A stretch of DNA of 64,000 nt from an uncultured Mucispirillum sp. GTDB taxonomy: Bacteria; Chrysiogenota; Deferribacteres; Deferribacterales; Mucispirillaceae. The notes below the pieces were generated by a model. It searched no databases, had not been told where the DNA came from, and saw only the letters and a program-made list of their open reading frames with translations. The first letter of the stretch is position 1. Each line of letters starts with the position of its first letter. Positions 39,945 through 57,730 of this stretch are shown piece after piece. The position numbers were made by a program, and so were the translations under genes. The stretch spans positions 62,001 through 126,000 of the forward strand of contig CALUWI010000005.1 of assembly GCA_944324465.1 (NCBI GenBank). Direction: 5' to 3'.

Positions 39945-41210
39945 ATGAAAACATTACTTAAAAACTGCAAAATAGTAAATCATGATAAAATAATTGAAGG
40001 TAATATTTTAATAAATGATAATATTATTGAAGATATTACAAATGAAGATATTCAGGCAGATAATGTATATGACTGCTCAGGAAAATATGTTCTTCCTGGT
40101 CTTATAGATATGCACTCTCATATGAGAGAGCCTGGCTTTGAATATAAAGAAGATATTACAAGTGCTGGTCAGGCTGCTGTTGCCGGCGGTATTACTACAG
40201 CATGCTGTATGGCAAACACTAAACCAGTAATAGATAATGCTCCAGTTGCTGCATTTATTATTAATAAATCAAAAAAAGACGGATTTTTTGATGCCCTGCC
40301 TTATGGTGCTGTAACAAAAGGATTAAAAGGCGAAGAACTTACAGAAATGGGCGACTTAATAGAAAATGGTGTATGCGGTTTTTCTGATGATGGATATACT
40401 ATTATGAATGCAGAAGTTATGCGTAGAGCATTAGAATATGTTAGATATTTTGATTCTTTTATTTCTGTCCATGCTATTGACACTAATCTGCAAGGCAATG
40501 GATATATGAATGAAGGCAGAATTTCTGCAATTAATGGCTTAAATGGTATCCCTTCTGAATCAGAATCAGTAATTATTGCAAGAGATATTATGCTGGCACG
40601 CCTTACAAAATCAAGAGTGCATATAAGTCATGTAAGCTCAAAAGAAGCTGTTGATATAATTCGCTGGGGTAAAAATGAAGGTATTAATGTTACTGCAGAA
40701 GCTACTCCACACCATTTTACATTAACAGATGAAAACTGCTTAACTTATGATACAAACTATAAAATGAGCCCGCCTTTAAGAGAGGAAGAAGATATTGAAG
40801 CAATATTACAGGGCTTTAAAGACGGCACTATTGACTGTATTTCTACAGACCATGCACCACATCAGGATGATGAAAAATTTGTAGAATTTGGACTTGCTCC
40901 AGTTGGTATTATTGGATATCAAACAGCTGTTCCATTAACTATAAAAAGAATAGATGAAGGCAGACTTTCATGGACAGATTTTGCAAGACTTATGTCTTAT
41001 AACCCATCTAAAATTCTTAAAAAAGAAAATTTAGGTGTTATTGCAAAAGGCAAACAGGCTGATATTGTAGTTATTGATGCTGATGTTGAATATACTTATA
41101 CAAGAGAAATAAACAAATCTAAATCATATAATACTCCATTTTTAAATAAACAGTTAAAAGGCAGAGCTTTATACACTTTTAAAAATGGCAAATTAGTTTA
41201 TCAAGCATAA
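39945..41210 (+). CDS. pyrC: Dihydroorotase
   Basis: PyrC cyclises carbamoyl aspartate to dihydroorotate. The 421-residue class I amidohydrolase has the metal motif LIDMHSHMREPGFEYKED, then SVHAIDT, VHISHVSSKEAVD, and STDHAPHQDDEK with the catalytic Asp. Ends at a strong bidirectional-type hairpin. The product goes to PyrD/PyrK encoded at 25.8-27.5 kb on the other strand. Confidence 0.96.
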   Translation: MKTLLKNCKIVNHDKIIEGNILINDNIIEDITNEDIQADNVYDCSGKYVLPGLIDMHSHMREPGFEYKEDITSAGQAAVAGGITTACCMANTKPVIDNAPVAAFIINKSKKDGFFDALPYGAVTKGLKGEELTEMGDLIENGVCGFSDDGYTIMNAEVMRRALEYVRYFDSFISVHAIDTNLQGNGYMNEGRISAINGLNGIPSESESVIIARDIMLARLTKSRVHISHVSSKEAVDIIRWGKNEGINVTAEATPHHFTLTDENCLTYDTNYKMSPPLREEEDIEAILQGFKDGTIDCISTDHAPHQDDEKFVEFGLAPVGIIGYQTAVPLTIKRIDEGRLSWTDFARLMSYNPSKILKKENLGVIAKGKQADIVVIDADVEYTYTREINKSKSYNTPFLNKQLKGRALYTFKNGKLVYQA

Positions 41211-41229: not shown

Positions 41230-41260
41230 AAAGGCTATTGGATTTCCAATAGCCTTTTTT
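41230..41260 (+). terminator. Terminator after pyrC, possibly bidirectional
   Basis: AAAGGCTATTGGA and TCCAATAGCCTTT form a 13-bp stem with a 2-nt loop followed by a T-run on +. On - it is followed by CATTTTTTT, so it would also stop transcripts leaving the FMN riboswitch. Confidence 0.9.
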
Positions 41261-41317
41261 GTTACTCATTATAAGTGACTTTATAAAAGTCTAAGATATA
41301 TAATATCTTTTAACATA

Positions 41318-41437
41318 TTATCTTTCATCCGGACTATACCGTCGGCTTTGGAATTTCACCAAATCTGCCAAAAAGGCTCGTGGGCTTGTTATAAAAACTT
41401 ACCACCGGTGGGGAATTGCACCCCGCCCTGAGATATT
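41318..41437 (-). ncRNA. FMN riboswitch (RFN element) with no downstream gene
   Basis: Read on the - strand the element shows every conserved block in order: TCAGGGCGGGGTG, AATTCCCCACCGGTGGTA, AGCCCACGAGCC, GATTTGGTGAAATTCC, and GCCGACGGTATAGTCCGGAT followed by GAAAGA. P1 pairs TATCT (5') with AGATA (3'). FMN riboswitches normally control riboflavin synthesis or transport genes. Here the strand continues for only about 100 nt, with a 7-bp AT hairpin (AAGATAT-TAT-ATATCTT), and then meets the pyrC terminator and antisense pyrC. No riboflavin gene follows. The element looks structurally intact. Confidence 0.95.
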
Positions 41438-41449
41438 CTAAAAATATAC

Positions 41450-41482
41450 AGCCTGCCTAATAAGATACTTATTAAGCAGGCT
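41450..41482 (-). terminator. Terminator of the chemoreceptor gene
   Basis: On the - strand AGCCTGCTTAATAAG pairs with CTTATTAGGCAGGCT (one G-U), followed by GTATATTTTT. It separates the chemoreceptor from the riboswitch, so the riboswitch would need its own promoter or readthrough. Confidence 0.8.
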
Positions 41483-41489
41483 AAAAATA

Positions 41490-43124
41490 TTATTTAACTT
41501 TAAATCTTGTAAGCATCATTTTAAGAGTTTCTACTCTTTCCTGTAAATGCTCAATAGTCTGAGTTACTTCATTTACAGCATTGCTTGATTCTTCAATACC
41601 TGCAGCAATACTTGTTGCTGTTTCATGAACAGTCTGAACAGTAGAGTATTCATTATCCATATCTTCTCTAATAGTGCTCATAACACTATTTATACCATCA
41701 ATACCTGTAAAAATTTTATTAAACACATCTTCTGTTCTTTCAATATTATTAACACCTTCTTTTACTTTTTCTGCTTCCATACCCATTGCAGAAGATGCAG
41801 TTAATGCTTCATTTTGTAATGTAGAAACAATAGTAGTTACTTCACTTGTTGCTTTTTGTGTTCTTTCTGCAAGTTTCCTTACTTCATCAGCAACTACAGC
41901 AAACCCTCTGCCCGCTTCTCCTGCTCTTGCTGCTTCAATAGCGGCATTTAATGCTAAAAGATTAGTCTGGTCTGCAATATCATTAATTACGGTAACAATA
42001 TTACCAATTTCGCTGGAAGAATCTGCAAGATTAGTAATTGTATCAGAAAGAGAATCTGCATCTGTATGAATTTTTTCCATACTTAATTTTAAATCTGTAA
42101 GCTGTTTTTTACCATCATTTGCAGAAACAACTGTATTATCAACTACTTCTTGATTTGATTTTAATGAATCAACAGTTACTTTTACTGTGGAATTAATAGA
42201 ATCTAAACTAATAGCTGTATCACTAACCTGATGAGCCTGCTCTGAAAATGTTGAAGATAATTCTTCCATTGTTGAAGCAAGCTGATTATTACTTGATGCA
42301 ACATCTTCTGTAGCTTCTGTGACATTCAGAAGTATCTCTCTGATACTTGCAAGAGATACATTAATATTTTTAAATGTGGCACATATTTCTGAATTACCTG
42401 CTAACTCTGGAGCTTTTACCGTCATATCTCCATCAGCAATACTTATAAATAATGTATCTAATGTATTTAATGCTCGTTTTAAACTGCTTATGAAAATATA
42501 TAAGAAAATTAAAAATATAACGGCTATACTTGCTATACAAATAAAAGATATTAAAATAATTGTATAAGTTTTTGATGCAGATTTTTTTGCAGCATTAGTT
42601 GAAAACAGTTTTATTTCTTCTTCAAAAGCATTTAATGACTGCGTAATTTTTTCTTTACCTGATTCATATTCTTTGCTGCTCATAAGCTGTGAAGCTTTCT
42701 GTAAATCACCTGCTTCTACAGCTTTAAAAGATGCTTCTTCCAGCTTGATTAATGCATCAGAATCACTTTTTGCTCTTTCTACATATACTAAAATTTCAGA
42801 AGGTACACCTAATTTAACTAGTGATTCTATTGATTTATCTCTAGTTTTAGTTTCATTTACTTCTTTCCAGTATTTATCATAATATTCTCTGTTACCAGTA
42901 GTAGCATAAAGCCTTGCCTGAGTAGTAAGATAATCTGACGCTTTTGAAACCATAAACCCATATGAAACAATATCAAGGCTGTCAAATGTTAATTTTTCAT
43001 TGTCTCTTGTAGCATTATAAATCATTGTCATAAAAATGAGAAAAGAAATAATCATTGCTGCCATTCCAACAACAATAATCCATAAAAAATAACTAAACTT
43101 AAATTTTAAAATCCCCAGTCCCAT
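41490..43124 (-). CDS. Methyl-accepting chemotaxis protein
   Basis: This is a 544-residue membrane chemoreceptor. TM1 is near residues 12-34, followed by a helical periplasmic sensor of ~150 residues, TM2 near 188-213 and HAMP near 212-265. The signalling hairpin centres on [33 protein letters not shown]-type sequence (in pieces: [38 protein letters not shown]). It signals to CheA via CheW. The ligand is unknown. It is monocistronic with its own terminator. Confidence 0.95.
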
Positions 43125-55418: not shown

Positions 55419-56319
55419 TATTGCAGCAGGTATTGATATAGGCAGTAATTCTATAAGGCTGATTATTGCCGAAGTTGAAAATAATAAAATAAAAAATATT
55501 ATTTATCAGGAAAAAGCTACTACAAGACTTGCTACAAATATTAATAAAACTGGCATTTTAGCTGAAGAACCTTTTAAAAAATCTATAGATGTACTTGCTG
55601 GGTTTAGAAAGGCTCTTGATAAGTATAATGTTGCAAAAATCAAAACTGTTGCAACAAGTGCTGTTCGTGAAGCCCGTAATGGCGAAGAATTTATTAAAGC
55701 TGCTGAAAATGCAGGTATTGAAATATCTATTATCAGTGGAAAAGAAGAAGGTATGCTTGAATATCTTGGTGTATGTTCTGGTTTTGATGCTGGCAGTCAC
55801 CCACTGATTCTTGATGTTGGCGGCGGCTCATCAGAAATTATATATATGCAGGAAAATAATGAACTGCATACAGAAAGCCATAAAATAGGCGTAGTTAAAA
55901 TGGCAGATATGTTTGACTTTCAAAATGGAAATAATGAAACACTTGAAAAATGTAAAGCATATATAAAAGAATTTTTTAAGGATGTTACTATTCCAAACAA
56001 TATCCAGAATTTTATTGCAACAGCAGGCACTGCCACCACTCTTGCTGCAATAGATATGGAAATGACAGAATATGATTTTAATAAAGTTAATGGATATAAA
56101 ATATCAAAAGAAAAAGTAATAAAAATACTTAATAAAGTATATTCTACCCCATACAACAAAAGACTTGAAATTAAAGGTATGGATAAAGGCAGAGAAGATT
56201 TAATAATACCAGGTATTTTAATTATATTAGAAATACTAAATAAAACAAGTATTGATATTATTACTGTTTCAGATTTTGGTTTAAGAGAGGGAGCAGTTGT
56301 TAGAGCAGCCAGTAATTAA
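55399..56319 (+). CDS. Exopolyphosphatase / guanosine pentaphosphatase family protein
   Basis: The 306-residue Ppx/GppA core has the ASKHA phosphate-1 loop AAGIDIGSNSIRLIIAEV, TSAVREARNGEEF, the catalytic Glu of ISGKEEGMLEYLGV and LDVGGGSSEI. It lacks the C-terminal HD-like domain, so it is the short form. It hydrolyses polyphosphate or pppGpp. The start lies in mltG and the end overlaps the DUF445 gene by 23 nt, so the three are coupled. Confidence 0.9.
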   Translation: MSIKNNNIAAGIDIGSNSIRLIIAEVENNKIKNIIYQEKATTRLATNINKTGILAEEPFKKSIDVLAGFRKALDKYNVAKIKTVATSAVREARNGEEFIKAAENAGIEISIISGKEEGMLEYLGVCSGFDAGSHPLILDVGGGSSEIIYMQENNELHTESHKIGVVKMADMFDFQNGNNETLEKCKAYIKEFFKDVTIPNNIQNFIATAGTATTLAAIDMEMTEYDFNKVNGYKISKEKVIKILNKVYSTPYNKRLEIKGMDKGREDLIIPGILIILEILNKTSIDIITVSDFGLREGAVVRAASN

Positions 56320-57730
56320 TCTTATAACTACACCACTTGTAGCTGGTGTAGTTGGTTATATAACAAATAAAATAGCAATAAAAATGCTTTTTAGACCTTA
56401 CGAACCTAAATGGTATACATTAGGATGGCAGGGTATCGTTCCTAAAACAAGGCCAAAATTAGCAGTAAAAATATCAGAAATCGTTGGTCAGAAACTTTTA
56501 GCACATGATGATTTTTTATATGCACTTGAAAATAATGATATAAAAGCAAAAATACACAATATTATTGCAGAAAAACTTAAAAGCCTTAATTCAAAAGATA
56601 TTCATGCACTTATAAGACTTTCAAATTTAGAAGATAAAATTATTGATAATAAAGAAGTTATTAATAATGTTTTAAATAATGCTGCTGTTGCTGTTATAGA
56701 TATTTTTCTTAACAGGAAAATAGATATTAATAGTTTTAGAGAGCCTGTATTTAATCTTGTAAAAAATTTCAATTTAGAAAAAGCAATAGATGAGCAGATA
56801 GAAAACACAATTAATTCATTTTTATCTGAAAATAAAGCATTACAGGATATTATTCCACAGGACATTTTAAATAGAAAAAATGATTTAGTTGAATATTTAA
56901 CAATCACTATTATGGCTAATATTAGAAAGCTTGGTAAAAATGATATGGTAAAAGCTGTTTTAGCTCAAAAAGTAGTGAACTTTAAAGACAGTATGCTTTC
57001 TTCGGCTACTGGTATGGATATATTAAAAGCAGGATTTATTAATCTGTTTTTAAGTAATGAAAAAATAGAACAGATTGTAGAAAATGAACTGCCGCATATT
57101 ACTGAAGATTTATCAACTAACCCAGTTATATATAAAAATATTTATAAAACTATTGAAGAAGAAATAGATAATCTTCTTAAAAAACCAGTAAGTGAGATAA
57201 TTGTTAAGTTAGGGTTTAGTGATAATCATGATATAGTTTTATATATTAAAAATCACTTTGTAACAAATACTAATATTTTAGAAAAAGTTTCTGCTTTAAT
57301 ATTAGATAAGTTATATCAGTACAGCAGCTTAACTGTAAAAGAAATTTTAGTACTTTTAAATATTGATATTTATAAGTTTATTAAAATAGATGTTATGGAC
57401 ATTTTAAATGCAGAAAACTATAAATTAGTAAAAGCAAATATGATAAATAAATTTACAGCATTTATAAGCAGTAATTATAATAAGATAGCTGATGTTATTA
57501 CTGAAATTGCAATTAAGCTCATTAAAAGTAATTTAAAATATGCACTGAATGCTGTAAATATTGAGAAAATAGTAAAAGATAAAATCAATGCCCTTCCGCT
57601 GCCAGAAGTAGAAAATATACTATTTTCCTTTATGAAAGAGCATTTTAAATGGATAAATATTTTAGGCTTTTTTATAGGGTTTGTGATTGGGCTTGCTCAA
57701 GCATTAATGGTATTTTTTACAGGAGCATAA
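56297..57730 (+). CDS. DUF445 family membrane-associated protein
   Basis: The 477-residue protein starts at TTG 56297 with GAGGGAG 4 nt upstream. The N-terminus (TTPLVAGVVGYITNKIAIKM, then LFRPYEPKWYTLGWQGIVPK) is the family signature. The centre consists of amphipathic helices and one hydrophobic helix closes the protein (ILGFFIGFVIGLAQALMVFF). The YheB/YjiN-type DUF445 proteins have no established function. The gene follows ppx in an overlapping unit. Confidence 0.82.
   Translation: MLEQPVINLITTPLVAGVVGYITNKIAIKMLFRPYEPKWYTLGWQGIVPKTRPKLAVKISEIVGQKLLAHDDFLYALENNDIKAKIHNIIAEKLKSLNSKDIHALIRLSNLEDKIIDNKEVINNVLNNAAVAVIDIFLNRKIDINSFREPVFNLVKNFNLEKAIDEQIENTINSFLSENKALQDIIPQDILNRKNDLVEYLTITIMANIRKLGKNDMVKAVLAQKVVNFKDSMLSSATGMDILKAGFINLFLSNEKIEQIVENELPHITEDLSTNPVIYKNIYKTIEEEIDNLLKKPVSEIIVKLGFSDNHDIVLYIKNHFVTNTNILEKVSALILDKLYQYSSLTVKEILVLLNIDIYKFIKIDVMDILNAENYKLVKANMINKFTAFISSNYNKIADVITEIAIKLIKSNLKYALNAVNIEKIVKDKINALPLPEVENILFSFMKEHFKWINILGFFIGFVIGLAQALMVFFTGA

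Follow-up and report, generated by a model that had tools for sequence, protein, structure and literature searches.

In Vibrio cholerae and Escherichia coli (sroG), the RFN element (RF00050) precedes a monofunctional ribB. In V. cholerae, the main riboflavin (rib) operon exists beside this RFN-regulated ribB, and the operon itself carries a truncated FMN riboswitch (PMC5312566). Riboswitches of Listeria that act in trans (Loh et al. 2009; DebRoy et al. 2014; Mellin et al. 2014) are cited in PMC7266159. A literature search on riboswitch remnants and orphaned riboswitches under those phrases found none, and the titles and abstracts listed for Mucispirillum and riboflavin contained nothing on the locus described here.

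The window, the whole 64,000-nucleotide stretch of DNA that was analysed, belongs to a 2.42-Mb draft genome of Mucispirillum (Deferribacterota), here called G000; G001–G009 are its congeners, and G003 is a close relative. Between two convergent genes of the window, the following features were found:

39945–41210, plus strand: pyrC (dihydroorotase), the convergent neighbour; open reading frame with orthologues
41230–41257, both strands: bidirectional terminator hairpin, terminator-like on the plus strand (pyrC) and on the minus strand (RFN/ribB side)
41254–41312, minus strand: 59-nt spacer after the aptamer, 59/59 identical in G003
41313–41438, minus strand: FMN riboswitch aptamer (RF00050); cmscan 119.2 bits, full length, model 1–138
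41449–41483, minus strand: terminator hairpin of the chemoreceptor gene, adjoining the aptamer on its upstream side (terminator scan)
41490–43124, minus strand: methyl-accepting chemotaxis protein gene, the upstream neighbour (PF00015, E 1.2e-41)

The preliminary description of this DNA had reported complete RFN blocks on the minus strand at 41318–41437 and had named an Infernal RF00050 score as a check. The score is far above the gathering score of 66.2 bits (E 3.2e-27), the boundaries found by cmscan lie close to those given earlier, and by its sequence the element is an FMN riboswitch aptamer, the sole FMN riboswitch of the draft genome. When 51 invariant positions were set from 15 rib-linked RFN elements, 3 of them from outside the phylum, none of the 51 was altered in G000, and the conserved core and helices P2–P6 were present. 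In P2 of the G001 aptamer (L056), a G-C pair at two positions that are otherwise invariant has become A-U, a compensatory change that also occurs in the half of the G005 element that survives.

The statement of an intact P1 was only partly right. Two derived substitutions in P1 (41314 and 41320), private to G000 when compared with G003 and G008, both break pairs, and the predicted energy of the P1 duplex is −4.0 kcal/mol in G000 vs −10.4 in G003 and −10.5 in G008; a shifted 5-bp pairing is left over according to the duplex prediction. As modelled, the damage resembles early decay and would speak against present function.

An RF00050 match alone is no proof of a regulated riboflavin gene. A riboswitch acting in cis has such a gene downstream on the same strand, and in G000 there is none: on the minus strand 3′ of the aptamer we found no gene, only the spacer with its AT hairpin, the terminator (stem 41257–41230 plus a U tract) and then antisense pyrC, and the chemoreceptor terminator lies upstream. 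The orphan layout described earlier was thus confirmed. The contig is uninterrupted, both neighbours are intact, and the absence of ribB is repeated in G003, whereas in G008 ribB occupies the vacant place and the same terminator is found between ribB and pyrC. Orthologues of pyrC are present in eight congeners (89–98% identity), partially in a ninth, and in four family members (65–69%). On the chemoreceptor side, paired changes set the terminator hairpin of G000 apart from that of G003. G008 retains a similar hairpin (L015, about 1448–1476) and has no chemoreceptor gene between nfu and RFN. Within the chemoreceptor gene, G000 and G003 share an identical stretch of 272 nt (42730–43001) although fourfold divergence nearby is 24%; this suggests recombination or strong constraint.

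The locus was compared in the congeners, which are mostly metagenome-assembled genomes, one per species; G002 and G004 (incomplete genomes, contig ends) were left out. In G008 (CAMEZN010000112) the order at this locus is nfu, RFN, a 260-nt leader and ribB, convergent with pyrC, and the ribB product of 207 aa matches PF00926 (E 1e-71). The RFN of G001 is intact and is followed by a ribB pseudogene with a stop at codon 3, an internal deletion and frameshifts. The same pseudogene occurs in G005; the RFN before it is wrecked in the 3′ half (24/51 invariant positions hit). The element of G006 is decayed but recognisable (22/51 changed) and has about 600 nt of noncoding debris, that of G007 (18/51 changed) lies close to the pyrC terminator, and G009 has neither RFN nor ribB at the compared locus. 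In G000 and G003 the RFN core is intact and ribB is absent. Where order-level relatives carry an RFN (families f1 and f6), the gene directly behind it is a monofunctional ribB, and a family-wide homology search with the locus returned, beyond the locus itself, AT-rich noise only. The synteny comparison proposed in the preliminary description thus places a riboflavin gene, ribB, at this position, intact in G008 and as a pseudogene in G001, and bears out its suggestion that the regulated gene was lost. When G001 and G005 were compared with each other (L056, L057), pyrC was 99.5% identical and the ribB pseudogene about 98%, and the ribB leader and the 3′ half of the RFN differed strongly; this mismatch suggests either that a decayed allele recombined in locally or that an intact one was imported.

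The spacer of G000 and G003 may preserve the scar of the loss. Its start resembles the leader of G008 and G006 (TTAAAAGATATT), its end resembles the 3′ end of G008 ribB and the terminator (TATAAT...TAA.AAAAAAGGCTATTG), and a candidate ribB stop codon lies at 41262–41264. The spacer would then combine the beginning of the old ribB leader with what appear to be the final nucleotides of ribB, an assignment made by alignment of AT-rich sequence, and an internal deletion probably took most of the leader and ribB in both species.

Riboflavin genes elsewhere in the genome were also considered. In G000, ribD, ribE, ribBA and ribH lie in a single operon together with a nusB-like gene, and another RibBA-like protein, 366 aa long, is encoded at L068:2732-3832 (G000:C10, about 56231-57331). 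Its DHBP synthase half is full, and its GTP cyclohydrolase II half has diverged (QEGRGIGL to YKDTSKTGF) and scores 125.8 bits vs 243.0 bits in RibBA; the protein recalls the RibBX variants of Proteobacteria. All congeners have at least one DHBP synthase gene. Thus, since G000 has the full ribD-ribE-ribBA-ribH operon and the second RibBA-like protein, ribB was redundant.

We consider it most probable (about 0.62) that the aptamer is a recently orphaned relic, the 5′ control element of a dead ribB, and its FMN-binding core is most likely still intact. The ancestral order would have been the chemoreceptor gene, the FMN riboswitch and ribB (3,4-dihydroxy-2-butanone-4-phosphate synthase), convergent with pyrC, and high FMN would have throttled ribB, presumably at the level of translation, as the ribosome-binding site of G008 lies in a self-complementary stretch that may form a hairpin (CUAUACUAUAAGGAGUAUAG). 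With RibBA of the ribDE-BA-H operon and the second RibBA-like protein supplying the same activity, ribB would have become dispensable, and its inactivation appears to have happened repeatedly within the genus. In G000 and G003 the deletion would have spared the aptamer along with a short spacer and the terminator shared with pyrC, and the locus, if transcribed, would give a short RNA that ends at this terminator and has no target in cis. The RFN-ribB pairs of G008 and of the order-level relatives, the decay series in G001, G005, G006 and G007, the riboflavin operon and second DHBP synthase of G000 and its pair-breaking P1 substitutions favour this reading. The loss of ribB is established by comparison, and we infer that the present RNA lacks function.

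The possibility exists that the aptamer, the spacer hairpins and the terminator together form a stand-alone FMN-sensing small RNA of ~220 nt, which would be kept by selection and act in trans on another mRNA or a protein, with FMN altering its fold; we regard this as possible but rather improbable. It gains from the comparison of G000 and G003, in which 24.0% of 6147 fourfold sites differ over the part of the window common to both (pyrC 24.8%, chemoreceptor gene 24.9%) and mean intergenic identity is 90.7% (divergence 9.3%). None of the 51 invariant aptamer positions and none of the 59 spacer positions differ, the spacer being part of an identical tract of 71 nt (41243–41313), and the 9 differences within the aptamer are all confined to non-invariant positions (hypergeometric p 0.008). 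For 51 positions to show no change, the probability is about 1e-6 under fourfold divergence and about 0.007 under mean intergenic divergence. The RFN has also decayed in three other congeners, and the full transcripts of G000 and G003 fold better than shuffled sequences (z −3.4 and −4.8), although this would be expected of any aptamer with a terminator. However, 3.5% of the other intergenic windows of 59 nt (45 of 1288) are likewise identical, and therefore spacer identity alone is weak evidence. The switch helix P1 is damaged in G000, the form was found in two species only, and there was no convincing promoter: the promoter scan gave 4 matches vs 2.3 expected, with a single upstream minus-strand match, inside the chemoreceptor gene. 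Pairing of the spacer with six candidate mRNA regions (rib operon, second ribBA, pyr, chemoreceptor) was no better than that of shuffled spacers. Much depends on when the deletion occurred. The identical spacer suggests that it predates the split of G000 and G003, and in that case the conservation of core and spacer hints at continued selection; drift would have been expected of a relic, yet 0/51 invariant positions have changed, and the relic reading then requires a later spread of the deletion by a short recombination tract. If such a spread took place, ribB constrained the aptamer for most of the time and the statistics say little. In the local gene tree, G000, G002, G003 and G006 are grouped with 99% support and the order inside the group has low support (58 and 68%), so that the tree fits either timing of the deletion. 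That the riboswitch has outlived ribB in the two Mucispirillum species as a stand-alone FMN-responsive RNA under purifying selection, ending at the pyrC terminator, seems doubtful to us.

Two further roles put forward in the preliminary description were rejected. In FMN-dependent antisense control of pyrC, FMN would set termination, and read-through into antisense pyrC would occur when FMN is lacking. A terminator does lie between the aptamer and antisense pyrC, and riboswitch-controlled antisense RNAs have a precedent in the B12 riboswitch/AspocR of Listeria. The hairpin is, however, an ordinary bidirectional ribB/pyrC terminator that G008 has too, the predicted folds retain its 11–12 bp in both species, and the sole complementary stretch noticed (CCAAAGCC in the aptamer) is an 8-bp imperfect match that is likely due to chance. 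With no credible antiterminator and a terminator that is ordinary and shared, such control is very unlikely. The suggestion that the riboswitch controls a 15-codon ORF beginning at the 3′ end of the aptamer did not hold, and we give it next to no credence: the frame is uninterrupted in G000 and in G003, but its ATG belongs to the conserved aptamer motif GGAUG, a Shine-Dalgarno site is not evident, both differences between the two species are amino-acid-changing, and G008 reads GGACG there and so lacks the start. As a gene, the ORF is unsupported.

Mucispirillum offers a natural series of the death of a riboswitch-gene pair, with an intact pair, a dead gene with an intact switch, a dead gene with a wrecked switch, a switch alone, a decayed switch alone and nothing as its stages. 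Such a series permits measuring how long an aptamer survives past its gene, and its possible uptake as a free regulatory RNA. As in V. cholerae (PMC5312566), the ancestral RFN-ribB unit would have accompanied a main rib operon that lacks intact RFN control. V. cholerae has no DHBP synthase outside its main operon other than ribB, whereas in Mucispirillum there is also RibBA; and unlike in V. cholerae and E. coli, ribB of G000 is deleted and the riboswitch alone is left. The truncated FMN riboswitch of V. cholerae likewise survives as a remnant alongside further riboflavin genes in the genome, but it is incomplete and lies inside an operon, whereas the aptamer of G000 has a complete core and no downstream gene. 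The trans-acting riboswitches of Listeria (SreA/EutX type) carry a ligand-binding aptamer on a short terminated RNA, and the putative RNA of G000, known here from its sequence, would have the same design.
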